Of a stretch of 64,000 nucleotides of DNA, positions 10,047-51,900 are shown in pieces (positions within the stretch are counted from its first letter, which is position 1; each line of letters opens with the position of its first letter). The position numbers and the translations under genes were made by a program. Origin of the DNA: Agelas oroides (Eukaryota; Porifera; Demospongiae; Agelasida; Agelasidae). The stretch lies in contig OX422198.1 in NCBI GenBank assembly GCA_949130485.1, positions 7,103,763 through 7,167,762 on the forward strand, in the 5' to 3' direction. A model generated the notes under the pieces. That model was given only the letters and a program-made list of their open reading frames with translations, did not search any database and was not told the origin of the DNA.

Positions 10047-10149
10047 TGCACACGTTGAATAGGTATCCATTAAATGTGTTCTGTGTTGTAAAATATATAT
10101 ATATACTGCTTTATATGCTGTGATTATGATTTATGTACTTGTGTGAAAA

Positions 10150-14651: not shown

Positions 14652-14752
14652 GCTGGTTTCCCACAGATTTTAACCAATCAGGTTATACCGATTGGGTGTA
14701 TGGCGGGAAAATCGAACAGTAATTTCTAAATACAGCACACTAACCTACCAAA
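14652..14752. promoter_or_regulatory. Bidirectional PMS1/ORC3 promoter with E2F and CCAAT motifs
   Basis: Only 101 bp separate the two start codons. The interval holds AACCAATCA at 14672-14680, an inverted CCAAT (GATTGG) at about 14690-14695, and TGGCGGGAAAA at 14701-14711, which is the complement of the textbook E2F site TTTTCCCGCCA. E2F with NF-Y (CCAAT) is a known arrangement in S-phase gene promoters. Function is inferred. Confidence 0.7.
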
Positions 14753-17700
14753 ATGGAAGAGGATCGAGAGGAAGAAGTTTCGACTACATCTGTATCAAAG
14801 GTTTGCAAGAAAAAAAAATCTCCATAATTTTTTTAGATGTTGATGGGAACATTTTTTTCTTTTAGGGGTGCTTCTTGTTCAATGCAAAGCCCAAACGAGA
14901 ACGTCCCATACTCACTGGTAGGTATTACACTTGTCAAGCTAGGATATCTGCAAATTAATGGCTTCTCATGCTTCTAGGTACATTTGAGAAGCTACCAGGG
15001 GAAACTGAACTAGATGCCAAGAAGCGACACAGAGCCTACGTCAGATGTTGGTCTGCAATGAAAGAGAAAATTGATGTATGGCTTAGCTGTGTACTTGTCT
15101 ACTAAGAGTATGTCCAGATCCCCTTTCCCTCCTCAGTTTGAATGCAACATTTTCTTGTGAATGCTCTCTAAGTATATTTTGTGCTTCTAGAATACGCATT
15201 GGAATCAGACATGGGAATGAGACTGGGAAGCTGGAATCAGACTGGGGAGGGGCTGGAGTCAGAACGGGGAAAGGTCTGGTTCACACCCAATCTCTTTCTG
15301 CAGGGTATCCTGTCCGAAGAGCATGACAAGATGTTTTCGGATCTGCTGAGATTCATCCAAAGTGCCCAAGTGCAGCTAGAAGCTCTCCACGAGAATGATG
15401 TTGCAAGCAGTAGTGATTGCTCCTCTATCTCATTTCTGCCAGCACGACTGGAAATATCCACTGTAGCACTGATGGCTGGTGAGTAGGCCTTGGCAAATTA
15501 TTCCGGAATAATAAGAATAATACGAGAATAATGGACATTGATTGTTTGATATTTGAGAATAATAGGTAAAAAATAGTCTACTATTGGTCTCTATAGAAGT
15601 TGAAGAACTTAGTGCACTGCCCAGTGTACAAAGAGTTAACATTAAAAAAAAAAAACAGTAGTTTTAGGGTTAAATTTAGACAACAACAATAGACCTTATG
15701 CAATTGACATCATCACCTACGTAACTAAACGTAAAACGGATAGTGGACGGAAATCCGGATATCAAATAGACTATTAATACATGTACCGTTTTTGGTTATA
15801 GTTAAATGTATGATGTCTTCACCTTCTTTTAGTTACGCTTTGGGAATAATTGAGAATAATGGGCTGGTTTGAGAGAATAATAGGCTGAAATTTTGGGAAT
15901 AAAAGAATAGAATAATGGGTGAATCATTAGGAATAATTTGCCAGGGCCTACTGGTGAGGAAGGATGGGTGGGTCGGGAGGAAGGGGAGTAGGATTGAGGA
16001 GAGGACAAGATGAGGATTGCTCCTAACGGTGTGCACGATCTCTTTCCTTTGCTTACACATCAGGAGTGAACATGCCTGACCACGATGTTCTCTTTGCTCA
16101 GCTGAGGCAGAGGGTGCGCGAACAAATCAGCCCCCACGTGGTGGTGTTGAGATCCAGGGACTGTAATACAGGTGCACACTCTACCCCCAAAAACCAAATT
16201 CACAAGACCATTTACTGCTAAGTGGTATGGAACGGGGACTCTCCGTATGCAGGTATGAAGGCTACAATGAGAACAATGCTGACACAGTTGGTGAAAGCAG
16301 AAAAAATCGTAAGTATTTTTAGCTCTTCCCCCTAGCCTCGTTCCCAGGTCCTGCCCCACTTTTCGCCACTTTTGGTCGGTGGGGCCTCAGTTCAAGGCTC
16401 CCTCCTTCTCATGTGTATACCAGCAATGCTTTCATCTTCTTCTTCCCCCAGCATCCCCTCAGTGGTGGTGAGAGTGATGAAGAGAACGGTGGATCATCAT
16501 CCCAGCGTCGTCCAACCCACAAACTCCCCCTGCCCTCCATGACTGTTCTGTGCAGCTGGTACCAAGAGGTCAGTGACAGAGACGTGCATGGAACACTCAG
16601 CTAAGCCTACTACACCTTCCGCCTAGCATGGGACACTCTGTCTGCCTAGCATGGGACATTTGCTAAGCTTTCTACTCTGTCTGCCTAGCGTGGGACATTT
16701 GCTAAGCTTTCTACTCTGTCTGCCTAGTGTGGGACATTTGCTAAGCCTTCTACTCTGTCTGCCTAGCGTGGGACATTCAGCTAAGCTTTCTACTCTGTCT
16801 GCCTAGCGTGGGACATTCAGCTAAGCTTTCTATCCCTCTTGCCTAGTGCTCTGACTGGATAGACCTTACAGTAGTCACTTGTCATCTCTAATGTATTGCC
16901 TCGTAACCAGACACAGTCAGGCATACGAGGTTACTCTTACTTGGTTATAGTGTACTGTAGTATGCAAGAGTGTCACATGTTTATTCTTCTCCCAGTGTGA
17001 GGAAGAGAGAGACAAACAGACTATAACGTGAGTATGCTATTAGTCTCATTCCCACACCATCCATAGTGGACTGGGAATGAGACTTGCATTATAACTTTGA
17101 GCTATACACTCTGTGGATGAACGCCTGTCAATTCAACTTCTACTACCTAGATACTCACTCAAGCTCGTCCTACAATGTCTCTATGTCTGAGATCAACCCA
17201 TCCATCTTTCTGTCTGTCTGTCCAGACCTTCTGGTCATCCAACACTTCTGTGATTTACTCACACATGCATCATATGCAGAAAGAAGCAGCAATTGGCCCC
17301 CCAGACTGGTGTTGTTTCCTGGCCCCCAGTAGTGGTGATAATTGAAGACTTTGAGGGGTTCGTACCACAGATTCTCCAAGACCTCATAGCATCTCTGAGG
17401 TAAGAAACTGAACCAATGATGCCTCCACTTGTGGAACGTACCCCAAGTCTAGTCTCACAAAGCCAGAGAACCCAACTTCACGAGACTAACCCAGGTTTCA
17501 CAAGTCCCCAACTTTAGTACTAGTCTCATTGCCAGGTTCCTATGCATGAGTGAAGCCTGGGAATGAGACTAGTGCAGTACTGTATGCCAGTAAGGTGGGA
17601 GGCCTAGGTACACAGCTGTATTTCTTGGTAATAGCAAATAAAAATTTTGTACAATATTTGCATGGGTTATATAATTCACTAGTACTGAAATCTACATGTA

Positions 17701-20700
17701 GAGGTCTGTTTTCATTGGTGCCACTGGAGCAGGGTCACATGACCTAGAGAGTCCCCCACCACAAACAGCGGCAGCTGGTTTTTCTCTGTGCTGCGCACAC
17801 CGGAAGTAGCTGTGACACAAGACTGGCAATAGAAGTGTCCAATTTGCTTCAGAGTGATGGATGACTCAGGTTGCTTAGAGACCAACTTCCAAACTTTGAT
17901 GGTACAATCGTCTGATCCTGTGATCAAGTTCCCACCCACCATCGCCAGCGTGTTGATTGCTTTCTGGTGTACCTTCTTGGTGAGTTCGACCGTCTTTGTG
18001 TCCTTGTTCCAGAGTAAGATCCTCCCTCTGCTGTCAGCTATGGCCAAGCGGGAGCTGTCTATCTCACACAGGGCTAGCAACCATGCGTGTTCCCTCTCAC
18101 CCTCATCCATTGGTAGTGTGTACCTTGAAGCATTCGAGACAGTAATTGGCTTTCTGGTTGGACCTTGCTTGGCTGGTAGTGGCCATCGGTACAGAACCTT
18201 GTCAAGCCCGATAGAATACACAACTGAGCTGCCTTTTTCCTTGACAGCTGTCAGATCCATTACCCACCCTTTGTGGGCATCCAGTTGTGTTGTGATTCTC
18301 TTGTTGCTAACGGAGACAGCAGCAATTCTGTTAGACCACGACCCAGCAATGATGGTGTTGCCGTCTGACGTGAGAGCTAGTTTTGGAATGGGATGATCTC
18401 CCATGAGGAGACCAGCAGCTATGGTGGAATCTTTCGTGGGGTAATCAACTGGAGAGAAACGATAAATACTAATTACACCATCATCCTTGCCAACAGCAAT
18501 GGAGGCAGCTTTTGAACGCTGGTCGACTGTTAGGAAGCAAATGGAACTGACGGCCTTCTCTGAAACTCTCACTCCGTACAGCCTCTCCAGCTTCGTCTCC
18601 TCTCTCTCCTTCTCTCCATCTCTCTTGATCAACCACACAATGAAACACCCATCTCTCCCGCCAGAGATAGCATAGCTGCCGTCTGCAGACATCACACAGG
18701 AAGTCACTGGACCCGTGTGTCCCTTGAGAGAGCTACTGCCAAGGGAAGCTTTTCCTGGCTCAACCGTGAGATTGGGACTCCACAATCGAATACTGCCATC
18801 AAGAGAGGAGGAGACGAACTGATTGTTGAACGTTGTGACAACAGAGAGAACTCTGTCCGAGTGTCCAACAAGTGCTGTGATTTCATTGGGTACGAATGGT
18901 TTCCACACCCCGACTGTTCCATCATCGCTGGCAGTAATAACAGAAATCTCCTCTAACTGCATATTTTTCACCTCCTCTGCATAATCTTCTTCAGTAGCTA
19001 TGTCCGCCCACTTAGAGCTTGAGGTGTTCAGTTTGCTAGGGATGTTCACTGCACAAGCATTCACTCGCTGCTTGTGGCAATGGAGCGTGGTAATCTCGAT
19101 ACCCTTATGAGTCCACACTTTCACCGATCCATCAAAGGCTGCGGAGACAATACATCCTTGGGAGAAAGCAACCGAGTTGATGGAAGAAGTATGCCCCTTA
19201 AACGTCGTTTTTTCAGTACCTGTCTTCAGGTCCCACACCTTGAGGGTGAAGTCGTTGGAACCTGTCACCAAGATATCCGTGGATGTGTCCGAGAATGTGC
19301 ACGTGTTGATCCAATCCTTGTGGCAAGCAGGGATCACTTGCATCTGTTTGTACCCCAGTGTGTCCCAGACAATGAGGCTCCGATCGTGGCTTGCTGTCAC
19401 CATCTTGAGCCCACCAGAAGCGAACGCAATGGAGGATATCTTTGCGGTGTGGCCATGGAGGGTTGCTATCGGGTTCACTCCTACCTTCCCACTCTTCATA
19501 AGATCTCTTGACGCTTTAGCATAGTCCAGGGCTTGGTGTGGCCAAATGAGTATCGTAAGGTCTTCTGAAGCGGAAGCAAAACCATTCTTGTCCCACACTG
19601 CACACGTGATGGGAGCCTTGTGACCAATTAAGTCAATGTACTTGGGCAAAACTGATGGATTCCAGATCTTGACAGTGGCGTCTGCAGAGGCCGACATGTG
19701 GACTTTGTCATGGTATGCCACTCCCACCACTTCAGCCTCGTGGACTTTCACTGCAAACAACTCAACTCCCGTTTGTACGTTGAAATTTCTAACGTGGCCA
19801 TCATGGTACCCAACTCGTACAGATTGAGTTACGGGATCAAACGCGAGACAGTGAGCAAATCCAAGTTTAGCACACCCCATGGAGAGGATTGGCTGGCCCA
19901 GGCTCCCCGACCACACCTTCAACACCTTGTCGCCTGAAGCCGTTACCAAGTACTGTCCATTGGGTGTGAATGCAATGGAATTGACAGGGGAATGGTGGCC
20001 GACAAGGCTACCCATGGCAGACCCCGATCTTGTTGACCAAATTTTTACCTCGCCGTCGAGTGCAGCGGAAACAATGTGCCGGCCTGACGGCGCATAGGTG
20101 CAAGCTTGTATAGCAGTTTTGTGGCCTTTGAGTATCTTCAGCTTCTTTTTGTTGAACGTGTCCCAGATTTTCAGTTTTGCATCCCAGCTCCCGACAACGA
20201 TGAGTTGGCCCTCAGGGTGGAATGAGACACAGTTGATTGGTGTGTTATTCGTATCGGCCGTCTTTAGCGTTGCAACCCTCTCACCCTCTCTGCCACCCCA
20301 GACTTTAATGGTAGCGTCCCAGGAGACAGAAACTACAAGGTTTCCAGATGGGTTTGAAGCGCAGTCGTGTACGCTTCGGTTATGTCCCTTCATTGTAGCT
20401 ATACGGTAGCCTCCTTTGATATCCCATAGACTCAGAGAGCAGTCATGTGATGCGGAACAGAGGCCATGTGAGCCGACAAAACAGACACCTGTTATTCCAG
20501 CTGCATGCCCAATGAAGGAGTGCCTCTCTTTTCCCGTAGCTACCTCGTAGAGTTTTACAACACAGTTGTTGAAACCAGCGGCAAAGAGGCTACCATCTTG
20601 GGAAACAGTGACACACGTCACAGCCCCACTGTGACTGGAGATGTTCATGTAACATGGGTCAGCCTCCTCTGGTTTGTTTACCCACCGTATCACTGGCTGT

Positions 20701-23700
20701 GGGCTGTCCTGCAGGACGTCCTGAGCAGCTCTGGTCACCACCGAGGTTGAGGGTTCATTCAAAGCTTGTTGAAGGGCCAGTGTGGGATGGTTAGTGAGCA
20801 CGTGTAAGTTACGGGAGACAAAGGACTTGAAGGCTTGCACTTTAGGCTGTTGCATGAATTTGGCTACCTCTCTGGCTTTGCCTGAAGACAGACCGGTCAA
20901 GGTGGGTGTAAAGTCTTCGAGGAGCTGGCTTGCTAGACCCATCTGGCATTTGGCAACAACAAAATAAATGTTGCAGAGGATTTCTTCCAGTTCTTTCCAG
21001 GCACCAGCTGCCACCAGGTGGAAGGGTAGCTCACTGTACGCCCTTGCATTGTTCCCCTTGTAGAGTCCATCTCCTGAGGGGTCAGCCTCTGACTTGAAAT
21101 ACTTGGCAAGCAGTTCATGGAACTTTCTCTCCTGGCTGCTCGCTGCTCCCTTCATATACCTGGAGTAAACAGCCTTCTCGATCTCCTTGTGCGCGAGTGT
21201 TAGAAAGCTTGCATTTCCCTCTCCGGTTGGCTGCAGAAATGTTCGCAGACTCCTCAGAAGTCGGGAGATCACCATGGGCGGAAGGATACTCTCTACCTCT
21301 GGATCCTTCTCCGTAAAGAAGAGTGAGAGGACGCTGGAAAGTTCGTGCTCTTGTAGTCCGCTTCGAACAAGGGAGAGGAGGGAGAGAGAAGTAGCTAGGA
21401 CTTCTATGCCGTGTTCTGTTTCCATTCTAGTGAGAATTTCTTGAAGCAGGATTGGGATTGTCGTTGGCATCTTTTTCAGAAATGTTGTCACTTCTTCAAA
21501 CACCCCAAACACTCGGAGTTCCTCACAAGCGAGGTGGAGGTACAGAGGATTGTTAGCCTCCTTCTTTGTCAGGAGTAACTTCAGTTGGTTATTGAAAGGA
21601 GACTCGTCTAGCGTCTTCCGGTGTTTCGCTAGAGTTCTCCTCACCATTTCTGCTTTGTCCCACATGTCCATCGCCCCAACCGTCACCTCCACTGGGGCTG
21701 GTTTGCATTTCCTCAGGATACCAACACAGGATCCTGATTCCACCCCACTTAGTACGATCACCACACCCTCAGGGATTTCCGCTGGAAGCCAATCCATTGC
21801 ACGCCCATTATATTTGTCTTCTAGGAGGTCAACTCCATCAATTAGGACTACCAGCTTTGAGTCAACGCCTCCTGTGTTCGAGACACTCTCCTCAAGAAAG
21901 TCTGCCCAATCTTTTACCAGGTCTGCATAGTCTTCAGGAACGTCCAAACTGACCCCAAACCGACGTTTCATCTCATGGCAGAAGCGGGTAAGAATGGAAG
22001 CAATGTTGGTCGAATCTGGTGCTGCTCCTATGAAGTGTGACAGCACACAGCCTGGTGAAGTGTTACCATGATGCTCCAAGTAGTTCTGAGCAAAGGCAGC
22101 CATGAATGCTGATTTTCCAGACCCTGGTTTGCCTGCAACTACCACTAGCTTCTCTTTAGCTTCCACATAGCTTTGCATCTGTTTCAAAAGAGCCCTGCGT
22201 CCAGTGAAGCTGTTTGCTCTGCTCTCAATGAAAGCTTCGTGGAGGGAGGTAGCTAGAGAGATCAGATCACCACCAACTTCCTCCTCAGGGAAATCCTTCT
22301 GAATGGCATTCCAGAGATTGTGGAGGACTCGCTGTCCGAAATCTTCAAGTCCACCTAGCATCGCTTTCTCTTCAACCATCCCCAGCCACCTCGCTGGGTA
22401 GCCATCGTACACCTCCAAACCACTTGTGCGAATCCGACTCTTCAGGTGTTCAATACTCTCCTCGGTCTCTTGCAATCCACTCTCAAAGTCTTTTCTGAAT
22501 TTCTCGGGGATGGTGGTAAGACAGAAGGGATCTCTAAAATAAAAGAAAGCTTTTCCGACGACCTTTTCAGGGTCACATAGAGCCGCATGTTGCATTTCAA
22601 TCTCTGTGATTGACCTTCCTGCCGGGAACTCTTGTAACCAATCAAATTCAGGCCCATCGGGAACGAAGTACTCATCCTGGACCCACCCATACCTCTGTCC
22701 GAGCAAACCGAGGAAATACTGACACCGGGAGATCTCGCCAAGGCAAATCTCAAGTGCCTTGTGACTCCTGGCAGCTTCTTCAGTGACTCCCCATCGCAGG
22801 TCAACCTCGTACACCTGGATTTGTCTAGCATGGGCACGAGCTCGGAGTTCGGGGAAGACGAAACGAGTCAGCAAGTCCCTCTCTCCATGCATGTCTCGGA
22901 AAGTTGAGGAGATGAATACTCGAACCGTCCTCCACCTCTGCTGCTGGGTGGAAGCCATTAGCGCTTTTTCTGGACCCAGGGTGACAGGCTGTGTAGAAGA
23001 ATCACCCAACAGAGCCGGTAACTTCAGCGGCTTCAAGTTGTATGCTTTGTCAATGTTGTTGACATACGTAAGCTGGCCACTGTCACCCCTCTCGGCTATG
23101 AATTGCAAAATTTGCTCAGAGTAGCCAGCGAGGTAGATATCGTTCTCGTGTTCTGGTTTGATTGTGCTGTTGAGCCCGCTAGACTTGCCACTCAGGTCCA
23201 CGCTGACAAACAGCAGGTTACGGTTTACAAGATGGCGGTACTTCTTGAGGAAATCCATCATCCCTCTGCCCTGTTCATCGTCCAGCTTCATTGCATCAGT
23301 CAGGAGAACTAGGTTGTCAATAGCAACCCTGTCCACTAGCATACTATAGAGAAAATTGGCGGGAATACAACCCTCATTGCTTGTGAGGCCTTGGGAAGTA
23401 GCAGCTGTCATTACGCTCTCCATGTTGTGTAAGATGGTTCCCTCTTGCAGCTCAACTTTAGTGTAGCTGTTGTTTTCACCGTAGAGAAGCATTGTGCACT
23501 CCTCACAAGAGTACTTACACATAAGTCCCAGCAGGATACCGATCTCCTGTACCGTACGTGGCTTGCCCAGCCCCCTGGCAGCTGTGCAGGGGCGGTCCAT
23601 ATTGCTGCCCACGTTACAAAGAATCAACGTGGAGCCACTGATGGGCTTTACATTGTAACAGGTGGCAATCTTAAGAGCGTTGTCAAGGGCAGATCGATAG

Positions 23701-26700
23701 CGGTGAAGAATCTGCGGATCAACCTTTGGCAGTTCCTTTGTCTTCTTTTGTCGCGACCTTCCTTTTGGTCTACCTTTGGTAAAGGTAGGCGGAGGGACAC
23801 CTTTCTCCAGATCATCGAGTACTTTGTAGGCGGAGAAGAATCTGAATGGAAACTGTCTACTGTTGATGACGGCTCTCTCGTCGTTCAGCTTGCGGATCAC
23901 CCACTGGTGGTGTTTGGGAGAGACACCAGCAATAATCAGATTCCGAAGATTGCGCAGCATTGCCATGAAGGGAAGCTTTTGGTGGTCAATCAGCTCCTCC
24001 CATGTGGACGCCTTGTTCCCCTTTGTCGAGACCTGCGTCTCCCACGTCTCAGGGACTGGCAACTTCATCCTCTTGCCAGCACGCTCCTGATCCCAAGTCC
24101 CAGGCAGCCTGCTCCTACGGAAGCTCTCAGCGTCTTCGGGGTACTTCTTTCCCACAAGACACATGACGTGCTCGACTGGCTCAGAAATGTGAATCTTACG
24201 GATGAGTTGTTTCAAAGTGAAACTGAGTCTCTCGATTTCTTCCTCACTTTCAGCCTCACTCACCACGACAGAATCACTCTCTGAATCTGAGTCGTCTTCG
24301 GAATTTGAGCTGTCTCCTTCCTGCTCCTTGTCGGAGGATTTAGCAGTTGATTCTGAGGATGGCTTCTTCTTCTTCTTCTTCTCGTCTCCCTCCTTCCCTT
24401 TCTGTTTCTTTTTCTTCTTAGAAGTGTCTTTGTTGTACTTTGCAAGCTGGTACGCATCAAACTCAGTGAACCTAACTGCCATGACTTTTCTAAGGGCAGT
24501 CGGGAGGGAGCCAAAGTTGATTGACTTGTCATGAAAGGCTTGGTAGATTTCAGCCACTTCAATCCAGTCTGAAGGCAGCCTCACAGAGGAAGAGTAGTAC
24601 TTCTTGAGGTAGGGCCTGCAGCTTTGGATGTTAGAAGCCAAGGCAAGGAGGAAATTAGCCGTGGTTCTGATGTTGAGGTTGGACCTCGTGTAGAGAGCCA
24701 CTTTCAGGATAAATTCTGGATCACATCGAGATAGTTTCTCACCTAGCCTGCACAGGCTACGTCGAGTGACGTCATGCGAATCACGGAAATCTGGTGAACA
24801 GAGGAGGGAGGTAGCTACTGAATTGATCAAAGTGGTTTTCAGACCGACTACGTCCACAGCTGGCGCTGGTGGGGGTTGAACTGAGGGATCTAACTCCGGG
24901 GGTAGAAACTTTGGCCCTTCTGGTCCCTCTGGCGGTCTCTTGGCAGAGAAGTCGTACTGTGGGGCACCTTCTGTGTTTGTTGTGATTGGTTTCACAGTCA
25001 TGGGGATGGTAGACGTCACCCTTTCAGCAGCCTTTGGGGATTTTGTCACTGTTTGGGAGGAATATCCTTTGCCAGAGGCTGCAGGTTTGGAGGTGAGTAG
25101 TGTCCTGCTCGTGAGGGTACTGCTGGAGAACACCCCTGGCTCACCTATCTTTGGCTTTGCGGAGGTAGAGAGGAGAAAGCTAGTAGGCTTTGAAACAGAA
25201 GGCTTGAATATAGGTTGCACATGCGAGATTGATTTCAAGGTGCTGGTGAGGCTGGATGAACCAGTCAAACTGGTTGAGGTAAGTAGAGAGGGCCTGTAGG
25301 CACCAGATTGTGGAGGTTCTGACGTGAGAGTCGGCTTGGACTGATGGGTGGACACAGGTGCCAGTATTCTTGAGGTCAGAGAGGTGAGGGCGCCAGTCGG
25401 TTTGAGGAGGCTGGAGGTTGTGGGTCCCCCTGTTGAAGTAGTTGTCCCATGTGAGCCAAACATTAACAAACTTGCTTTTGTTTCCACCCCAGAGGTGAGT
25501 TTTGAGTCCTGAGCTTTTGAAGAAAGCAGCGGAGGGGAGCTCACAAGGCTGGAATTTGTCTGCACAAGGTTTGACTTGTGGGGGGGAGCTCTGCCCCTAG
25601 CCATGGCGCTCAGAGTGCTGGTAGACTTCATACAGGTGGTGGAACCCTCTCCTGTTCCGTTCATTTTAGCAGTACTGGATTTGCTAGTGCTACCTGTTGT
25701 GAGGCCTCCAGTATGACTGGTCAATCGAGTGGAAGAGCCAGTATGACTGGTCAATTGGGTGGAAGGGCCAGTGTGATTGGTCAATCGGGTGGAAGAGCCG
25801 GTGTGACTAGTTAATCGGGTGGAAGAGCCAGTGTGACTAGTTAATCGGGTGGAAGAGCTGGTGTGACTGGTCAATCGAGTGGAAGAGCTGGTGTGACTGG
25901 TCAATCGAGTGGAAGGGCCAGTGTGACTGGTCAATTGGGTGGAAGAGCCGGTGTGACTGGTCAATTGGGTGGAAGAGCCGGTGTGACTGGTCAATCGGGT
26001 GGAAGAGCCGGTGTGACTGGTCAATCGGGTGGAAGAGCCAGTGTGACTGGTCAATTGGGTGGAAGAGCCAGTGTGACTGGTCAATCGGGTGGAAGAGCCG
26101 GTGTGACTGGTCAGGGTGGTGGAAGTCAGGTTGCTTCTAGTTTTGCTGCTTACCAAGAGGAGTGGGTTGGTGAGGGAAGGGGAGGGCCTTGGATACTCAG
26201 CTGTGGCTGCCATACTGTCTGTTAGCTGTGGAAGAAAGACAGGGAGATAAAAGTTGACAATTGCCCAATCAAGTCATCTTGTTTGAAACTATTTTCACAC
26301 TATAAAAGAGCTTGATGAGCTGAGTTAGCTACAGAAGCTACTGTTTGCAACTTACCTAGGCTGTTCACAGATCTCCTGTCAGAGAGGATACAGCTGCTTG
26401 CCTTGGCAGGACTGGGGGCTTATGTAGAACTAGCCCTTTGCACAACAGTACAGGGCCCTTACATCAGAGGCCCAGCTTATTCCAATTATGGGGAGGAAAT
26501 TTTTACTTAACTATATTCATCCTTATGTAATTGTATTAATTTACATACTTCAGCTTATTACTAGTGTTTCTATTCATAGTGTGTGCAGTATTGGATCACA
26601 AAAAGGGCTGTACAATGTGTACAATGTATATTATACTCCATCCTCAATCCCCCCCTCCCCCATGTCTCCCAAGTCCTCACCTCCCCACGTTCCCTGTGGT

Positions 26701-29700
26701 GTTGGTGCTGGGTGTAGCGACATCAATGACAGCCATTCACCGCACCCTCCCTCGCTCCACCTCCTCTCTTCTCTCCATTGAGCAGCTCCACACACAGCAC
26801 TCTACACTGACCCTTTCACACATCATTGAAGAGGTAAACACGCAACGGTCAATCTCAGGTGAAGACGAACAATACCAGTCAAAAAGACACTTAACAAGTT
26901 GTAAAGTCCATATTAGGAAAAATTGTTTATTTAAAGCTGTTTCTATAGAAACATGATTTACTGCTATAGTCACTTCTGGACCAATGAAAATACTGATTGA
27001 TGATGTAATGGGACACTAGCCCACACAGTTCTCCTATGAATTGTGGCTGTTGTTGGTCCTTATGTTCTACAGGTGCTTCTGACGTCCTCCCTCCCATTCA
27101 AACTAGGACCTCGTGCGCTCTCCTTCCTCCTCCACCACTTCTACCACTCCACCTTCTCTGTCACCAGCTTCACAAAAGCTCTGCACGTGCGTTCACACAC
27201 ACTCTCAACCCACAGCAATATCGATACCCACAATTTGAAAGTATTTTGATCAAACCCAAACTCTCTCCTTGAGCCTCTTCCTGTGTGGTCTGTAGCCTGG
27301 GTACGAGGCTACCTCATGCTCAGGATTATTGTCTCCTGCCTTGTCACAAGACTATGTGTACAGCTGGTGTGTGTGTTTCTTTCTCCACATGTAGTGCGCC
27401 ATAATGGAGCACTTTTGCTGGCAGCCTCTGAGTGTGTTGTGTGGCCCCTGGAGTCGAGAGAGGGGAGAGGAGAAAGAGGGGGTGGGGCACATGGACCACA
27501 CCCACTGTGAGATGGCTAGAGCCACACCCTCCCTACAGAAGTCAGTAGAGCCAGGTTGCCATAGATACAAGTTCATGGGACTATAGTCTGGTCTCTAGGC
27601 TAAAAAAATGTATGCAGACAGATCTTTGTATTTTGTTACTCTCATTTGGACAATACAGGTACGTGGAGTCTCTCGACCCTGACCAGCAGCTGTCTGTTCT
27701 TGAGAATGACAGAAACCTCAAGGTCAGTTCATAGAAGTGGAGCCCCAGCCCCATCCTTCCTCTCGTCTCATTCCCAGACTCTCACATCCCCAGCTCTCGT
27801 CTCGTTCCCAGACTCTCCCATCCCCAGCTCTTGTCTCATTCCCAGACTCTCGCATCCCCAGCTCTATTCTCGTTCCCAGACTATCACATCCCCAGACTCT
27901 CGCATCCCCAGCTCTCGTCTCGTTCTCAGACTCTCACATTTATTTATACTATTAATAATGAAAGCTGAGTCTGGGAATGAGGCTACCCCACATCAACAAC
28001 TACAACAATGGTGTACAACAATATAACGTTTGAGAATGCATGTTTTGACAAAACGACTCAAAGCCAGACATTTCTAGCATTAGACGGTACTTGGCAACTG
28101 TCTTGTTGGAACCCCTGTCTAATGTTGTACGTTTGTACTGCTAATCTCCTAGGCAACCATGAGGCAGCTGCTGCTCTGTCTGGAGTGCTACCACCAGCAG
28201 TTCTTTCCCCTCCTGAGGTGTCTGTTTCACCTAACCAGGACACTGCCCAACGCACCCCTGGGAAGGAAGGTGGGTGGGAGGGATAGGTAGGGGTTACCAC
28301 TCTCCATCTTTCCTCACGGACTGTTCACACAGGTGCATGAACTTTACTCTCGGAGTCTTGAGCGCACTGTCACTGAAGATGAGAAATTCCAGACAGCATG
28401 GAGCCTCCTCAGGTCAGCTTACAATGGTAGGAAGCCTGGGGGCATACCCTTGTCCCCAGGTCTTCCTCCCATGTGCCCTGGGTACGAGTCTAGGGGGACA
28501 ATGATATTGATGAGGTCTCTGCTGATTATCTTGGTGATGAAGGATCTTGGGGAGGAGTGAGCTCTCCTCTGGAGTTTTCAGGTGCATCAGCGAGCTGGAA
28601 GGGGCTTTGTGTGTGCACAGGTATGTCTGATGTCGTGAGGGTCACTGTTACATGACTGAACTACCTCTCTCCTTGTCCCTTCCTCCCTCTGCTCCTTGTT
28701 CTTTCTCCCTTCCCCTCCTATCCCTTTCTCCCCCTCTTGCCTTCCTCTCTTTCCTTCCTGCGCCTCTCCCTCTTCCCTCCCCTTAGGGTGGACACTCTCC
28801 AACAAACCTTATCAGTTCTGAAGCAATTTGTGCAGGATCTCAAAGAGTTAGACCAAAAACCAACAGATACTTCAGGTCAGTAGAGAACGCATGCACACAC
28901 ACTCTCAGATCTTTCATACCCAGACCAACGAACACTCTAGCTAGGACACAGACAAACACTCTGTGGACTCTTGAGTTATCAGTTTTGTAACTACTTCTTT
29001 TGAAAAGTTTGTAGCCCCAACTACTACCACTCCCTTCACACACTGTGTATTGTTGGTGCACATTATCCATTTTCTGGTGAGGTAGGTGAAGGTGAAGGTA
29101 CCACTTTGCCTGCAACCAGGGAGGAGACCACAAGTGAGAGAAAGATGAGGTTTCAGGAGGTACGTGTGAGTGTACCTTGACTCCAGAACATGGGAGCTTT
29201 GCTAGTCCAGCATTCTTTGGTGAGCCCTCTACCTGTTTTATCTTTCTTCTAGCGGTTGAGGCAGGTTGCCTCACGGAAGAAAGAACCAGGTGCATATGAG
29301 AAAGTCTCCTCAAAGATGCTGGACACACTGCTTGAAACATTCAGGTATGTTCATTATCATAATGCAACCACGAGCTCACATGATCCCACCATGAGCTCAC
29401 ATGATCCCACAATGAGTTCACATGATCCATCAAGAGCTCACATGATCCACCATGAGCTCGCATGATCCCACCATGAGCTCACATGATCCCACCATGAGCT
29501 CACATGATCCCACCATGAGCTCACATGATCCCACCATGAGCTCACATGATCCACCATGAGTTCACATGATCCACCATGAGCTCACATGATCCCACCATGA
29601 GCTCGCATGATCCCACCATGAGCTCACATGATCAACCATGAGCTCACATGATCCCACCATGAGCTCACATGATCCCACCATGAGCTCGCATGATCCCACC

Positions 29701-31967
29701 ATGAGCTCACATGATCAACCATGAGCTCACATGATCCCACCATGAGCTCACATGATCCACCATGAGCTCACATGATCAACCATGAGCTCACATGATCCCA
29801 CCATGAGCTCACATGATCCACCATGAGCTCACATGATCCACCATGAGCTCACATGATCCACCATGAGCTCACATGATCTCACATTGTATCATGCAGGGTG
29901 CACCTTAGGTGTCCTCGCACTCTACCACTCCATGAGATCTTCTACTTTGATAATGCCTCATCCCTCAGAAAGGTAACAGCTCTACCTAATGTCGTATTAG
30001 TTACATGACGAGAGCTGGGTGGTACATTTCATCTGTCAGTTATTTCTTCCATTACCAGCATCTAGCTGCAGCACCCCGGGCAGCCATTCAGATGGCACTC
30101 AACTGCCCAAAATACTACCTTCCTGTAAGTCTGTGCTGATCCCACCATAATAATGAGTAAATCAAGGTTGTCAAGGATGTGGTTGTCCAGGATATTGATT
30201 GTGGGTGGTAGGATGAAATGTTGAACCCTGCTAGGAAGTACGTAGCAGTTCAACCACCTCTTTCACATCAGCAATGGTTGGACCCCAGGAAATAACCTTT
30301 GCTCTCAGAGGAGGTGGGACATGGTTGAACTTTACTAATTAAAATGGCTGAGGTCACACTAATTGATCTTGGATATTGCAAGATAGAAAGCCTTTTAGCT
30401 TCTTCTATGACTGGCCCCAGCCTTGAATCTGATTTGAAAACTGGGCCCCCACCTCAGTAAAACTCGAGAGAGAGAGCTAGTCTGTTGAGATACGAAAAAT
30501 CAATTAGTGTGACCTCAGCCATTTTAATTAGTAAAGTTCAACCGTGTCCGACCTCCTCTGCTTTGCTCCCACCCTGAGCATTTCCAAGGCAGCCATCTTG
30601 GGTTAGGCACTTCTGTTTACAGATTATCACATTTTGCAGCATGTGAGGGCATGGTGGACAATGTTCTTCAAGATCAAGAATTACTAAAACAAGAGGAGCT
30701 AAGAGGGAGAGAGAGAGAGGGAGGAGGAGAGAGAGAGAGGGAGGAGGAGAGAGAGAGAGGGAGGAGGAGAGAGAGAGAGGGAGGAGGAGAGAGGGAGAGG
30801 GAGAGGATGAGAGAGGGAGAGGGAGGGAGCCCGATGTAATATTGCATTCTTTTACAGTGGTCTTCACTTCTCCCTCAGTCGGCTGGCAGTGTGGGGGAGA
30901 GGACCGGCCTGGATGCTAACATGCCTGACGTTTGCATCATCTACCAACTGCACTTGGAGTGTGGGAGACTGATCAACCTGTATGACTGGTTGCAGGTTAG
31001 GACTTGTCTAGACGACCTGCTGACTGTACGCAGGAGACAGTAGTACCTCATGGCCATGAAAGGCAAAGGAAGGACATTTAGAAGCTGAACCGAGTTAGCC
31101 TCGTTATCAGGCCTTCCCCACCGACCAGTTTTTGATCGCTTGCAGTTTTGCATACTACAAGCTTTTGCATACTGCAAGCGATCAAAAACTGGACGGTGGG
31201 AAGGCCTGGGAATGAGGCTGAACAGAGAATTATACTGCTTAGTTTTCAGGAAATGTTATTAGTGTATAGTGTACTAGCCTCGTTCCCAGGCCTCCACGCA
31301 CGAGAGCCTGGGAATGAGGCTAATAGTATATGTAACATCCATACCACCATGAGTGGTAATCAGCAGTAAAATGTATCTAGGATAGCTAACATGACTAATG
31401 TCCGGCCTTCTGTTGCCAAAACAGGTAGTGTATTGGTTTATCTACATGTGACCTTTTTAGAAGCACCAGACTTTAACTCCCAGATGTCTTATTTTGCAGG
31501 CATTTGTTGCTGTGGTACAGCCAGGTGGTGTCATAGAGAAAGACAGTAAGAAGTCGAAGCAAGAAATTGACCCAGTGCTACAGTATCCTCCTTACATTCA
31601 TCTGTAGTCAAACTAGCCTCGTTCCCATGCTCTCCCCTTGCCCTGAGGCGAGGGGAGAACATGGGAACGAGGCTAATCCCAAACCAAGTCAGAAGTTCAG
31701 TGTACATAGCTAGTCTTGTTTCCAGCCTCTCACACCCCAGCTTCCATTGCTTGCAGTATTCTGAGGGCGTGAGAGGCTGTGAATGAGGGCCTGGGAATGA
31801 GGCTGTCTCTATCAGTCCTGTACGTCCATTTGAGAATGCGCTGTTCCTTGACTTGTCACAGTGCACGTTTCATCCAGGCTGTTTCTGAACTGCAATTCCT
31901 TGGCTTCATCAAACCCACTCAGAGAAAGACTGACCATGTTCAGAGACTGACATGGGGTGCATGCTAA
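14753..31967 (+). CDS. ORC3: Origin recognition complex subunit 3
   Basis: Subunit of the nuclear origin recognition complex that marks replication origins. The first exons encode [16 protein letters not shown] and [13 protein letters not shown] (compare the conserved SKGCFVFKP start). Later ones read [16 protein letters not shown]-like, [20 protein letters not shown] (exon ending 17399), [20 protein letters not shown] (26674-26833), [123 protein letters not shown], and the winged-helix end [20 protein letters not shown]. About 24 exons follow the vertebrate order throughout. The intron 17400-26673 is 9.3 kb and contains a complete antisense TEP1-like gene. Other introns hold minisatellites and two hAT-like insertions. 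The exon at about 27400-27557 has an uncertain donor. The stop is 207 bp before HMGCR. Confidence 0.93.
15484..15950. mobile_element. hAT-like MITE inserted at an ORC3 5' splice site
   Basis: AT-rich 467-bp element. Left end TAGGCCTTGGCAAATTATTC, right end complement TAGGCCCTGGCAAATTATTC (one mismatch). It is flanked on both sides by the 8-bp direct repeat CTGGTGAG (15476-15483 and 15951-15958). Eight-base duplications are typical of hAT transposons. The duplicated bases include the ORC3 exon end and donor (CTG then GTGAG). The interior has many GAATAAT blocks and no coding potential. Confidence 0.85.
16612..16852. repeat. 39-bp tandem repeat in an ORC3 intron
   Basis: About six copies of a unit containing CTGCCTAGCGTGGGACATTT and GCTAAGCTTTCTACTCTGT, 36-40 bp long, with small length variants. 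Confidence 0.9.
17712..26213 (-). CDS. TEP1: TEP1-like vault/telomerase-associated protein, uninterrupted, nested in ORC3 intron
   Basis: One open frame of 2,833 codons. TEP1 is the RNA-binding component shared by vault particles and telomerase RNP. Domains in order: repeat of [10 protein letters not shown] units (residues about 33-170); Ser/Thr-rich linker; TROVE RNA-binding module (about 480-1045) interrupted by a Lys-rich then acidic insertion (about 590-665); DUF4062 ([20 protein letters not shown] from about 1091, then [19 protein letters not shown]); NACHT NTPase with Walker A GKPGSGKS (about 1360) and Walker [12 protein letters not shown] (about 1451); and a long WD40 array from about 1858 to the end (for example [29 protein letters not shown]). 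The order and length match vertebrate TEP1 (about 2,600 residues), which is encoded by dozens of exons. In the vWA-like part of TROVE the expected DxSxS metal site reads CNVGSNMD. A 5'UTR intron is likely at 26226-26355. It is antisense to ORC3 and lies wholly inside one of its introns. Confidence 0.93.
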   Translation of the reverse strand: MAATAEYPRPSPSLTNPLLLVSSKTRSNLTSTTLTSHTGSSTRLTSHTGSSTQLTSHTGSSTRLTSHTGSSTRLTSHTGSSTQLTSHTGSSTQLTSHTGPSTRLTSHTSSSTRLTSHTSSSTRLTSHTGSSTRLTSHTGSSTRLTNHTGPSTQLTSHTGSSTRLTSHTGGLTTGSTSKSSTAKMNGTGEGSTTCMKSTSTLSAMARGRAPPHKSNLVQTNSSLVSSPPLLSSKAQDSKLTSGVETKASLLMFGSHGTTTSTGGPTTSSLLKPTGALTSLTSRILAPVSTHQSKPTLTSEPPQSGAYRPSLLTSTSLTGSSSLTSTLKSISHVQPIFKPSVSKPTSFLLSTSAKPKIGEPGVFSSSTLTSRTLLTSKPAASGKGYSSQTVTKSPKAAERVTSTIPMTVKPITTNTEGAPQYDFSAKRPPEGPEGPKFLPPELDPSVQPPPAPAVDVVGLKTTLINSVATSLLCSPDFRDSHDVTRRSLCRLGEKLSRCDPEFILKVALYTRSNLNIRTTANFLLALASNIQSCRPYLKKYYSSSVRLPSDWIEVAEIYQAFHDKSINFGSLPTALRKVMAVRFTEFDAYQLAKYNKDTSKKKKKQKGKEGDEKKKKKKPSSESTAKSSDKEQEGDSSNSEDDSDSESDSVVVSEAESEEEIERLSFTLKQLIRKIHISEPVEHVMCLVGKKYPEDAESFRRSRLPGTWDQERAGKRMKLPVPETWETQVSTKGNKASTWEELIDHQKLPFMAMLRNLRNLIIAGVSPKHHQWVIRKLNDERAVINSRQFPFRFFSAYKVLDDLEKGVPPPTFTKGRPKGRSRQKKTKELPKVDPQILHRYRSALDNALKIATCYNVKPISGSTLILCNVGSNMDRPCTAARGLGKPRTVQEIGILLGLMCKYSCEECTMLLYGENNSYTKVELQEGTILHNMESVMTAATSQGLTSNEGCIPANFLYSMLVDRVAIDNLVLLTDAMKLDDEQGRGMMDFLKKYRHLVNRNLLFVSVDLSGKSSGLNSTIKPEHENDIYLAGYSEQILQFIAERGDSGQLTYVNNIDKAYNLKPLKLPALLGDSSTQPVTLGPEKALMASTQQQRWRTVRVFISSTFRDMHGERDLLTRFVFPELRARAHARQIQVYEVDLRWGVTEEAARSHKALEICLGEISRCQYFLGLLGQRYGWVQDEYFVPDGPEFDWLQEFPAGRSITEIEMQHAALCDPEKVVGKAFFYFRDPFCLTTIPEKFRKDFESGLQETEESIEHLKSRIRTSGLEVYDGYPARWLGMVEEKAMLGGLEDFGQRVLHNLWNAIQKDFPEEEVGGDLISLATSLHEAFIESRANSFTGRRALLKQMQSYVEAKEKLVVVAGKPGSGKSAFMAAFAQNYLEHHGNTSPGCVLSHFIGAAPDSTNIASILTRFCHEMKRRFGVSLDVPEDYADLVKDWADFLEESVSNTGGVDSKLVVLIDGVDLLEDKYNGRAMDWLPAEIPEGVVIVLSGVESGSCVGILRKCKPAPVEVTVGAMDMWDKAEMVRRTLAKHRKTLDESPFNNQLKLLLTKKEANNPLYLHLACEELRVFGVFEEVTTFLKKMPTTIPILLQEILTRMETEHGIEVLATSLSLLSLVRSGLQEHELSSVLSLFFTEKDPEVESILPPMVISRLLRSLRTFLQPTGEGNASFLTLAHKEIEKAVYSRYMKGAASSQERKFHELLAKYFKSEADPSGDGLYKGNNARAYSELPFHLVAAGAWKELEEILCNIYFVVAKCQMGLASQLLEDFTPTLTGLSSGKAREVAKFMQQPKVQAFKSFVSRNLHVLTNHPTLALQQALNEPSTSVVTRAAQDVLQDSPQPVIRWVNKPEEADPCYMNISSHSGAVTCVTVSQDGSLFAAGFNNCVVKLYEVATGKERHSFIGHAAGITGVCFVGSHGLCSASHDCSLSLWDIKGGYRIATMKGHNRSVHDCASNPSGNLVVSVSWDATIKVWGGREGERVATLKTADTNNTPINCVSFHPEGQLIVVGSWDAKLKIWDTFNKKKLKILKGHKTAIQACTYAPSGRHIVSAALDGEVKIWSTRSGSAMGSLVGHHSPVNSIAFTPNGQYLVTASGDKVLKVWSGSLGQPILSMGCAKLGFAHCLAFDPVTQSVRVGYHDGHVRNFNVQTGVELFAVKVHEAEVVGVAYHDKVHMSASADATVKIWNPSVLPKYIDLIGHKAPITCAVWDKNGFASASEDLTILIWPHQALDYAKASRDLMKSGKVGVNPIATLHGHTAKISSIAFASGGLKMVTASHDRSLIVWDTLGYKQMQVIPACHKDWINTCTFSDTSTDILVTGSNDFTLKVWDLKTGTEKTTFKGHTSSINSVAFSQGCIVSAAFDGSVKVWTHKGIEITTLHCHKQRVNACAVNIPSKLNTSSSKWADIATEEDYAEEVKNMQLEEISVITASDDGTVGVWKPFVPNEITALVGHSDRVLSVVTTFNNQFVSSSLDGSIRLWSPNLTVEPGKASLGSSSLKGHTGPVTSCVMSADGSYAISGGRDGCFIVWLIKRDGEKEREETKLERLYGVRVSEKAVSSICFLTVDQRSKAASIAVGKDDGVISIYRFSPVDYPTKDSTIAAGLLMGDHPIPKLALTSDGNTIIAGSWSNRIAAVSVSNKRITTQLDAHKGWVMDLTAVKEKGSSVVYSIGLDKVLYRWPLPAKQGPTRKPITVSNASRYTLPMDEGEREHAWLLALCEIDSSRLAIADSRGRILLWNKDTKTVELTKKVHQKAINTLAMVGGNLITGSDDCTIKVWKLVSKQPESSITLKQIGHFYCQSCVTATSGVRSTEKNQLPLFVVGDSLGHVTLLQWHQ
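25695..26115 (-). repeat. 30-bp in-frame coding minisatellite in TEP1
   Basis: Thirteen to fourteen copies of a 30-bp unit encoding [10 protein letters not shown], with variants Q for R, P or S for G, and N for S. It forms a low-complexity Ser/Thr-rich N-terminal tail. Because the unit is a multiple of three, the opposite strand is also open across it (Gly/Ser/Arg-rich); I treat that as a shadow. Confidence 0.95.
26226..26355 (-). other. Probable 5'UTR intron of the TEP1-like gene
   Basis: On the minus strand CCTAG is followed by GTAAGTTGC at 26355, and TCTTTCTTCCACAG ends at 26226, twelve bases before the ATG. This is a canonical donor and acceptor pair 130 bp apart. It would give a non-coding first exon ending at 26356. 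Confidence 0.6.
29365..29885. repeat. 21-bp minisatellite in an ORC3 intron
   Basis: About 25 copies of ATGAGCTCACATGATCCCACC and an 18-20-bp variant (ATGATCCACC or ATGATCAACC). Each copy contains GAGCTC (palindromic) and TCATG/CATGA. Confidence 0.93.
30306..30560. mobile_element. hAT-like MITE in an ORC3 intron
   Basis: 255-bp element with inverted arms of about 60 bp. The ends are CAGAGGAGGTGGGACATGG and the complement of CCGTGTCCGACCTCCTCTG. The direct repeat CTTTGCTC lies at 30297-30304 (one base before the element) and at 30561-30568. The CAGAGG end and 8-bp duplication are both typical of hAT elements. There is no coding sequence inside. Confidence 0.85.
30695..30830. repeat. GAGAGAGAGG purine repeat
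   Basis: Tandem GAGAGAGAGAGGGAGGAG units just upstream of an ORC3 exon (30858-30993). The purine bias on the coding strand is the reverse of a polypyrimidine tract; the actual acceptor uses TTCTTTTACAG after it. Confidence 0.88.
31096..31219. repeat. Long hairpin, TAGCCTCGTTCCCAGGC family
   Basis: Inverted repeat with ends TAGCCTCGTTATCAGGCC and GGCCTGGGAATGAGGCT. The arms extend through GACCAGTTTTTGATCGCTTGC, broken by a short loop of CTACAAGC type. It lies in an ORC3 intron. Confidence 0.85.
31275..31321. repeat. Short hairpin, TAGCCTCGTTCCCAGGC family
   Basis: TAGCCTCGTTCCCAGGC followed after about 12 bp by GCCTGGGAATGAGGCTA. A minimal member made almost only of the two ends. Confidence 0.85.
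31614..31675. repeat. Short hairpin, TAGCCTCGTTCCCAGGC family
   Basis: TAGCCTCGTTCCCATG and CATGGGAACGAGGCTA frame an inner stem of CTCTCCCCTTGCC and its partial complement. It lies in an ORC3 intron, 80 bp from the previous family member region. Confidence 0.85.
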
Positions 31968-48963: not shown

Positions 48964-51900
48964 TTATTTGTTTTTCTTTAAAGTTCTCTGTTTCTCAGCA
49001 TGTTCTACAATTTTCTCCTCAACAGGGAGGCCCTTCCTTTTGCGCACTGTATTCATATATCTCCTAGCGATATTCTCTGAGTCTGCTTTCTCTCCAAAGT
49101 GTAGCAATTCTTCTTCAGTGGAAGGTACCCAGAAAGGGTCGTTGGAGATTAACTAAAAAAAAAAAGATGAACAACAACTTCAATCCCAGCATCTTATGAG
49201 CTAAATAAAGATTTGCAGCCAGCCCATGGCAAAGCTAGCAGCTGCCTATACAGACAATTTATTACTCACCTCCCAATGGCTGAACACAAGTTGAGGGCTA
49301 GCTAAGCCACTTGTCTTCTTTCTGACCTCTTCAGCAAACCCAAAGCTCTCGGCCACCGGTACCAGAGCCTGTACGCTAAAGACAGCTGAGCCTTCCTTCA
49401 TCTCTTCTGCCAGCACATGGCCATTCCTTCTTCCCAGTACAGCATATAGCTTCCCCAGAACCTCGGCAGTAGCCAAGATATCACAGGTATACATGGCAGC
49501 CATGAGTCTGGCCGGTTGGGCAAGGAAGGCTTTCCGACAGCCTTCCTTCATAGCTGACATTAGCTGACCAGAGAAGGGACCATAGACATCTGTAGCTTTT
49601 AACTGTGGCTGGGGGGACATTGGACTGCTTGGAACATCTTCAGATACATTTCGGTTTTCTGCCACCCTACCACTACTCCTGTTGTCTGTTTCAGGTTCTC
49701 TTGCAGTTTCGTCTCTTCTTTCTGGTTTGTTGTGAGTCCATTCCTTCAAGATGAAACACAGTCCATGCATTGGCTCCTCACACAAAGGACCTGACAGGGT
49801 GGCCAGCTGAAAACCACTCACAATGCTACTGTCATAATCCCTGAGAGTGTGCAACTTGTCTCCATTTGCTTCTAAGGCGTTCCATACTGAAGGTCTCTTG
49901 TAGGAGGAGAGCCCATTGAGCAGTATATTTGGCCCTGTGTTCCTAGGTCCAAATGACCAAATGCTATCAACAGCCTTTTCCCACTCAAAACTGTCATCAT
50001 CTGTGTTTTTGACAAACGCCGAGTGAAGTTTCGCCTTCAGTTCCTGTAGTTGCTGCAGCATTTCCTGACTAAGCTTGACTTCTTCCCGGGAAGATGTACC
50101 TGCCCTGACCAAATTGAGAGCACGCAGAAGGTGGGAGCTTTCTTTGAGAAGCTGAGTGACTTCTGGGAGGAGGGGTTTAGCTAGGATCTGCAGGGTGCAG
50201 ACTCTGTTGGCTGTCTGGATACAGATCACTTCACTGCTCAAAGCGTCTTTGCTGGTTTCCTTTGGCTGCAGACCCAGACCCACTTTGACCTCATTCTCAC
50301 TTGAGATGGCTTCATTGACCATGTCTATCTTGGGAGGGGAGATAACAGTCTCCCGGAAGGGTATGATGGGGGCAGAAACGTTGAGCTCCACTCGAGAATA
50401 CTGATCCCGGAGATCGTCAAGGCATTTTTGCAGGTGTACCTCTCCCGCAGTTGAAAGAATGTGTTCCCCTGTTTCCTGTACCATCACCTCTACGCAGGGG
50501 TCAGCCTGGTTGAGTAACTTCATCCCCCTCACTAGTGCAGGCATGTCACTGGCGTGCACAGGCTCTATAGCTACATGCACAATGGGAGAAGCCATATAGC
50601 TCATGGGTCGAAATGCAGGACAGGCCAGAGAGCTTGTAACCGTGGCAGACTTCAGAACCAGTTCTTCTAGTCCTGCGATCCCCACAATGTTGCCGGCTGG
50701 TACCTCCTCAACAGCCTTCACCTCTCTCCCCATCAGAATGTATAAATCCCCAACAGTAAACTCTGATACATTAGGAGGGAGCTCACTGCCACTTAGGACA
50801 TTACCAAGGTCAACATCCCTGGGATCGTAACGTGGGTGCAGGACAAAAAGCTTCTGTCCTCTATGAATTGTACCACTGTACACCCGCGAAAAGGCCAAGA
50901 AAATATCTTTGTCTTCTGGCTCTGTGGTTTTGTCTTCCGTTTTCTCAACTGTTTCTGTGAAATTGAAAGCATAATCTAAGTAGTCCCTAACTCAGTCTTT
51001 CATTGCTTGCAGTACAAAACAAAAAATACTGCGAATTATGAAATGTTGAGTAGGCTTGTGTAAACAAGATACCAGAAACTGTTATTCTGCAGGACATACC
51101 AGTCTTTGCTGTCTGTGATTGTTCACTGTTCTTGGCCAGATGCCTCTGTATAGCTGCCTCTCGCCTCTGAGCCATTTCTTCCAGCGTGAGGGGTCTGGCA
51201 AAGACAAGAAGTCTCATTAGGAAAGCTATTAACTATTGTGTAATTCCATTAGGGTTTATCCAACTAGTAATGACTGCTAAAAATTCTTTCCTGAGCAACT
51301 GACAACAAAAGACCCAAACAAAGAAGAGGGGAGGTTACCTGGCTTGGTGTTGGGGTAGGGTACTGCTGTCTACCACAAAGAGCTTGGAAATAAACACAAC
51401 AGTAGGAGCATTGGGGTCAGGACTACAGGCTATGAAATCTGGAGCAAAAAAAAAACCATAAACAATAAACAGACAGACAGATAGGCAGACAGACAGACGG
51501 ACCCACCTTCCTTCAGTAGCTGTGTTTGTCTAGGGAAGGAGTCAAAGGTCTTGGCACTGCTACACATCAGCTTCTCAACTCTCTCTGGTGTCAGCTGCAG
51601 AGGGCTGGGAAGCTGGTCCACCACCATACCTGCCACAGAGTGGTATATTAAATCATAAGGAGCCTGCATGGTAGTCTCATACCCATACCCCATTATTTTC
51701 CTCTTTGATGGGTTCTGGGTATGAAACCATCAATTCAAACTAGCATACATGTAACCATACAGTACTGTTACCCAGGGTGGCTGTTGCTAGGGGCAACCAC
51801 TGACTGCAGATGGCAAAGAGGTGAATCCTTGGGTCGGTGTGTCTTGAGTCCCTCGCAGAAATGTTGAGATTCATGCTGCTCACTATCCTCTCAATGCGGG

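Follow-up and report, generated by a model that had tools for sequence, protein, structure and literature searches.

A TEP1-like gene with one long coding exon nested antisense in an intron of ORC3 in the sponge Agelas oroides

In vertebrates, TEP1 is divided among dozens of exons. Here we describe a TEP1-like gene whose coding region appears as a single exon, read antisense within an intron of ORC3, in a 64,000-nucleotide (nt) stretch of the genome of the sponge Agelas oroides (the window, to which all positions refer). The excerpts used here of a preprint of May 2026 state that human TEP1 cleaves NAD+ through its DUF4062 domain and needs E1008 to do so, that replacing R908 or R976 with alanine lowers this activity, and that TEP1 lies at the shoulder of the vault, along the axis (PMC13174449). 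For a large multi-exon animal gene converted to one coding exon, the closest described case is amphioxus AmphiSYCP1, in which a coding exon of about 3,200 bp has taken over from a parent that was lost and has gained new exons in its 5′ untranslated region (5′-UTR), which the portion of the report cited here presents as retrogene replacement (PMC5803294). Finally, opposite-strand arrangements account for 220 of 296 simple nested pairs in human and 193 of 248 in mouse, according to the part of a survey that we cite (PMC8467205).

The sponge locus can be compared with all three. Like human and other vertebrate TEP1, its product carries TROVE, DUF4062, AAA/NACHT-type and APAF1-like helical domains followed by WD40/TEP1 propellers; unlike them, it is encoded by one coding exon, has an N-terminal region of 459 residues without a Pfam match that includes a decapeptide array, and bears Lys1152 in place of R954. 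With SYCP1 it has in common that the coding sequence of a large, multi-exon animal gene stands in a single unbroken exon. The two differ in that the sponge coding region is 8.5 kb long and lies inside an intron, with a 5′-UTR intron that is only a candidate, whereas SYCP1 is about 3.2 kb, sits beside the ParaHox cluster and, in the text cited, has documented parent loss and new 5′-UTR exons. As in animal intron-nested pairs such as H13/Mcts2 and those in the cited part of the survey, the coding region occupies another gene's intron, and compared with known nested pairs the inner coding exon looks unusually long, a judgement made by eye rather than from a survey of sizes. A literature search naming ORC3 found no ORC3/TEP1 nested pair, and the titles and abstract openings listed in our literature searches held nothing on such an arrangement. 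The kind of arrangement, an intronless coding region antisense within an intron, is known; this example is unusual in its size and in its contrast with a 24-exon host.

The nested pair is defined by the following features.

14753..31967, plus strand: ORC3 gene model from start to stop codon, built exon by exon (24 coding exons, 742 residues)
17280..17399, plus strand: ORC3 exon 9
17400..26673, plus strand: ORC3 intron 9, which holds the TEP1 coding region (9,274 nt, phase 2, GT-AG)
26674..26833, plus strand: ORC3 exon 10
17712..26213, minus strand: TEP1-like coding region, one exon, ATG to TGA (2,833 codons)

The ORC3 model has a coding length of 2,229 nt and 23 introns, all GT-AG. In a phmmer comparison, its residues 10-742 match residues 2-711 of human ORC3 (7cte_C; E 5.8e-131), with a higher score against the human protein (441 bits) than against that of Drosophila (301 bits), and co-linearity with the solved human structure spans the TEP1-bearing intron. 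The splice sites of intron 9 read CTCTGAG/gtaaga at 17399/17400 and ctcccaag/TCCTCA at 26673/26674. Because the junction of exons 9 and 10 (17399 to 26674) is in phase 2 and falls within a gap-free part of the alignment with human ORC3, 17400-26673 is a single intron. The original prediction had proposed that consecutive, in-phase ORC3 exons end at 17399 and resume at 26674, with TEP1 antisense in the one intron between them; the 24-exon model and the alignment agree with both coordinates to the nucleotide, and the coding region at 17712-26213 falls inside the interval.

Could the locus be an assembly artefact, or TEP1 DNA of another organism joined into ORC3? The many tandem repeats in the region would lend themselves to such an error, but the ORC3 exons flanking intron 9 keep their phase, third-position GC agrees between TEP1 (0.548) and ORC3 (0.561), and an element found across the window, CTCATTCCCAGGC, also occurs within intron 9 at 17555-17567, where it stands 144 nt away from the TEP1 frame's end. 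We therefore regard an artefact as very improbable.

The TEP1 frame itself is exceptional in length: the next longest start-to-stop open reading frame (ORF) among the ten listed for the window encodes 601 residues. It is bounded upstream by an in-frame stop, the stop-to-stop frame beginning at 26273, and its 3′ end is complete, since the Beta-prop_TEP1_C model is matched over its full length (1-73 of 73). As judged from sequence, frame length and homology together exclude an origin of this frame by chance. Its domains, all on the minus strand, are as follows.

25695..26114, minus strand: 14 consecutive decapeptide units at the N-terminus, residues 34-173, encoded by a 30-nt minisatellite (tandem repeat 25714-26113)
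23634..24836, minus strand: TROVE domain, residues 460-860 (PF05731, E 2.8e-101)
22293..22937, minus strand: TIR-like domain DUF4062, residues 1093-1307 (identity to human TEP1, 11gz: 100 of 214 aligned residues)
22596..22598, minus strand: codon for Glu1206, the counterpart in the alignment of human TEP1 E1008, which is reported to be catalytic
22110..22133, minus strand: P-loop GKPGSGKS of the AAA/NACHT-type domain, residues 1361-1368
17721..20642, minus strand: WD40/TEP1-type beta-propellers, about residues 1858-2831, with Beta-prop_TEP1_C last

TROVE and the two TEP1-specific propellers, the second (PF25047; 296 bits against 89) and the C-terminal one (PF25048; 129.9 against 32), exceed their Pfam cut-offs by a wide margin; the WD40 repeats and DUF4062 (PF13271; 59.7 against 24.7) also pass theirs. 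After DUF4062 come a NACHT/AAA ATPase and then an APAF1-like helical domain (APAF1_C; 39 bits against 22.8). In this middle part AAA_16 reaches 34.8 bits against 32.6, and the NPHP3_N and DUF5920 models also pass their cut-offs, the DUF5920 match lying at what we take to be the place of the vWA domain of human TEP1. The NACHT model stays below its own cut-off (21.9 against 26.7 bits), with the P-loop present, and an NCBIfam search of the protein gave a single match of 18.1 bits against a cut-off of 300. The frame of 2,833 codons, with its TROVE, DUF4062 and TEP1 propeller domains, thus bears out the original prediction of a TEP1 gene that is unbroken and complete at both ends. An antisense ORF at 23445-24284 (plus strand, 279 residues) has no Pfam match and is taken as chance, and two sigma-70-like matches were disregarded.

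The residues of the reported active site are largely retained. When human TEP1 is aligned through 11gz, on which a single offset of 893 puts all four human residues on the expected letters of the chain, E1008 corresponds to E1206, R908 to R1106 and R976 to R1174, and R954 is changed to K1152; two of three active-site arginines are therefore kept, and the P-loop is intact. The sponge protein would most likely function as TEP1 does, as a vault NADase and RNA-binding protein. It may be a vault protein of the STAND type, with TROVE as its RNA-binding part and DUF4062 as the part that hydrolyses NAD+.

Whether the frame is translated along its whole length, and without introns, was approached through codon usage, repeats and splice-site scores. 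When codon usage learned from the ORFs of ORC3, EFL1 and the chondroitin transferase is applied to TEP1, the sense frame ranks first among the six frames in 16 of 19 windows, each of 150 codons. Towards the N-terminus, the 459 residues that lack a Pfam match do so at E up to 1. The Ser/Thr-rich decapeptide array within them was delimited by choosing units on their peptide pattern, yet the 14 units are consecutive with none skipped, and they differ from one another mostly at synonymous positions (a crude pairwise pN/pS of 0.30). The N-terminus is probably translated, as the open frame and these substitutions suggest.

A few undetected introns with lengths divisible by three could in principle be hidden in the frame, leaving TEP1 merely intron-poor. 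Splice-site matrices were built from the 23 ORC3 introns, none of which (0 of 23) combines a length divisible by three with freedom from in-frame stops. Scanning the TEP1 frame with them for multiple-of-three candidates of 55-800 nt yielded six above a low splice-score bar, and the search also gave eight splice pairs of any length scoring at least 15.1; these are the signals that would speak for hidden introns. Only four of the six, however, score as high as the lower quartile of genuine introns, and at least four do so in 14 of 20 codon-shuffled controls, so that there is no excess over those controls at this bar. All six would, by position, delete residues of the conserved DUF4062, AAA or helical domains, and introns of other lengths would put out of register domains that share a single reading frame. 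Hidden introns are accordingly a highly unlikely explanation, and there is, on present sequence evidence, no credible intron in the TEP1 coding region.

How might such a gene have come to lie in ORC3? The 22 other introns of ORC3 are 60-754 nt long, and intron 9 without the TEP1 frame would measure 772 nt (312 + 460), slightly more than the longest of them. ORC3 carries one intron per 97 coding nt, and at that rate, taken from this one gene only, the 8,502-nt TEP1 frame would be expected to hold about 88. Together, the 772-nt remainder and the intron density of ORC3 favour the placing of an intron-free sequence into an ordinary intron. The best explanation, and one on which our belief is evenly divided, is an old retroposed TEP1 inserted in the ORC3 intron. 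A mature TEP1 mRNA would have been reverse-transcribed and, long ago, inserted into an ORC3 intron of ordinary size; the copy would then have acquired a promoter and would work as TEP1, and if it is the sole copy this would amount to retrogene replacement, as with amphioxus SYCP1. Also in favour are the intactness of the frame with its full set of domains, the lack of credible introns, the third-position GC and codon usage close to those of neighbouring genes, and the retained glutamate, arginines and P-loop.

A number of observations weigh against this explanation. No exact word of at least 9 nt is common to both TEP1 flanks within intron 9, as a target-site duplication would be, and neither flank contains an A- or T-run of at least 6 that could be a poly-A remnant. 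A full-length retrocopy of more than 8.5 kb would be unusually long. The unbroken 581-codon ORF of nearby EFL1 indicates that intron-poor stretches occur in this region without nesting. The first three of the 19 codon-usage windows (residues 1-450) do not single out the sense frame; the N-terminus is the weakest part of TEP1, its translation being argued solely from the lack of stops and from the substitutions among the repeat units. There is also a candidate 5′-UTR intron that fares no better than chance:

26226..26355, minus strand: candidate 5′-UTR intron of TEP1, 130 nt, with GTAAGT as donor and, 12 nt upstream of the ATG, an acceptor rich in pyrimidines

Its score of 15.4 is matched or undercut by 6 of the 23 ORC3 introns, on which the matrices were themselves trained, and 90 equal or better pairs occur on this strand of the window, or about 0.65 expected per 460-nt flank. 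Present or absent, a 5′-UTR intron is not decisive for the origin of the gene, because new 5′-UTR exons are reported, in the text cited above, for the amphioxus SYCP1 retrogene. Target-site duplications and poly-A tails both decay with age, and an old insertion would have lost them. None of the largest 20 of 43 direct-repeat families joins the two flanks. As the test for target-site duplication and poly-A was negative, we do not class the gene as a retrogene, and offer retroposition as a hypothesis of its origin.

A somewhat unlikely alternative is that TEP1 was already intron-poor in this lineage, with the vertebrate introns gained later or an earlier loss here, and became nested by duplication or transposition at the DNA level. 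The modules of TEP1 have intronless prokaryotic and viral relatives: a bacterial metagenome-assembled genome matches the DUF4062-NACHT region, DUF4062 and TROVE proteins are found on bacterial and archaeal plasmids, and a stand-alone TROVE protein is encoded on a viral contig. For TEP1 of Trypanosoma brucei, the portion of a paper cited here states a length of 8,418 bp (PMC12547018). EFL1, too, shows long exons in this region. ORC3, however, retains 23 introns at the same locus. To our knowledge trypanosomes are almost without introns in any gene, and being nearly intron-free they say little about ancestral intronlessness in TEP1. A recent bacterial origin is also unlikely, since the long prokaryotic matches have 24.6-27.4% identity (for the plasmids, among the 8 of 15 records listed) compared with 47% to human DUF4062; with TEP1-specific propellers present as well, recent bacterial transfer or contamination was rejected.

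The viral TROVE protein lies at 9260-10891 of an IMG/VR contig (L002), is Ro60-like with a DNSGS motif, and has 47% identity over no more than 83 residues of the TEP1 TROVE core; neighbouring ORFs resemble phage replication genes by eye. Searches with the full TEP1, ORC3 and DUF4062 pieces gave no matches among the viral contigs searched.

A further possibility is that an intron-containing TEP1 already sat within the ORC3 intron and there lost every one of its introns through recombination with a cDNA copy of itself. EFL1 offers a local parallel:

49246..50991, minus strand: EFL1 ORF of 581 codons with five Pfam families; GTP-binding sequence lies in another, upstream ORF at 53953-54624

The long ORF covers the C-terminal domains and the GTP-binding sequence falls in the upstream ORF, the 3′ bias expected of cDNA-mediated loss, which the unbroken 3′ stretch of EFL1 may represent. 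For TEP1, though, every intron would have to be gone over 8.5 kb, and the 772-nt remainder of the host intron is more simply explained by one insertion. We consider loss in place improbable and retain retroposition as the better account. EFL1 also tempers the claim in the original prediction that every multidomain neighbour is intron-rich. This was too strong, given the five-family EFL1 ORF and a chondroitin N-acetylgalactosaminyltransferase gene that lies mainly in two ORFs; ORC3, with 24 exons, fits the claim, and HMGCR looks split by eye.

Nesting holds for the coding region and less clearly for the transcript. No AATAAA or ATTAAA occurs on the TEP1 strand in the 312 nt before ORC3 exon 9, and the first AATAAA on that strand, at 16985, is 726 nt past the stop codon and beyond exon 9; the earlier description of a gene wholly within one intron is borne out for its coding region, and its transcript may reach further. 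On the ORC3 strand, three AATAAA hexamers fall in intron 9 (17637, 20963 and 22538). Because such hexamers are expected by chance, overlap of the TEP1 and ORC3 mRNAs is only a possibility. ORC3 would be spliced across the nested gene. Where the inner gene is active, transcripts of the host can be polyadenylated prematurely, for example at H13/Mcts2, as stated in the part of the source used here (PMC13309782). Nesting on opposite strands is the usual arrangement and is tolerated, though it may bring some transcriptional interference. A stronger version of the retroposition account, in which the TEP1 retrogene is the only TEP1 and replaced its multi-exon parent, its mRNA runs antisense into ORC3 exons 9 and 8, and production of a vault NADase is thereby mechanically tied to that of a replication-licensing subunit, the one tending to shut out the other, is improbable.

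The window contains other genes and repeats. Head-to-head with ORC3 (plus strand) is a mismatch-repair gene (Pfam DNA_mis_repair, minus strand), presumably PMS1, with start codons about 101 nt apart as read by eye (14649-14755); the pairing of two genome-maintenance genes suggests a shared two-way promoter. After ORC3 comes the gene for HMG-CoA reductase (HMGCR) on the plus strand, whose split N-terminal exons were likewise read by eye. The element CTCATTCCCAGGC has 23 matches with up to one mismatch in the window, against 0.13 expected (for example at 13332, 17555, 31204, 31306 and 57385), and in places forms a close inverted pair (17519-17536 and 17556-17573), like a small hairpin mobile repeat. 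A tandem array at 2903-3863 (period 34, about 29 copies) leaves all three minus-strand frames open for 351-382 codons (2785-3943); the one frame searched had no Pfam match.

Opposite-strand nesting as such is ordinary. If confirmed, the sponge locus would show a gene that vertebrates have in pieces as a single coding exon, intact and very long, and would put retrogene replacement of a vault component to a natural test. Whether or not TEP1 lies in ORC3 intron 9 could then be dated and used as a marker to follow the gene through early animals. That the NADase glutamate is kept in a TEP1 so far from that of human, with 47% identity in the best-aligned domain, fits an old origin of NAD+ hydrolysis in the vault.

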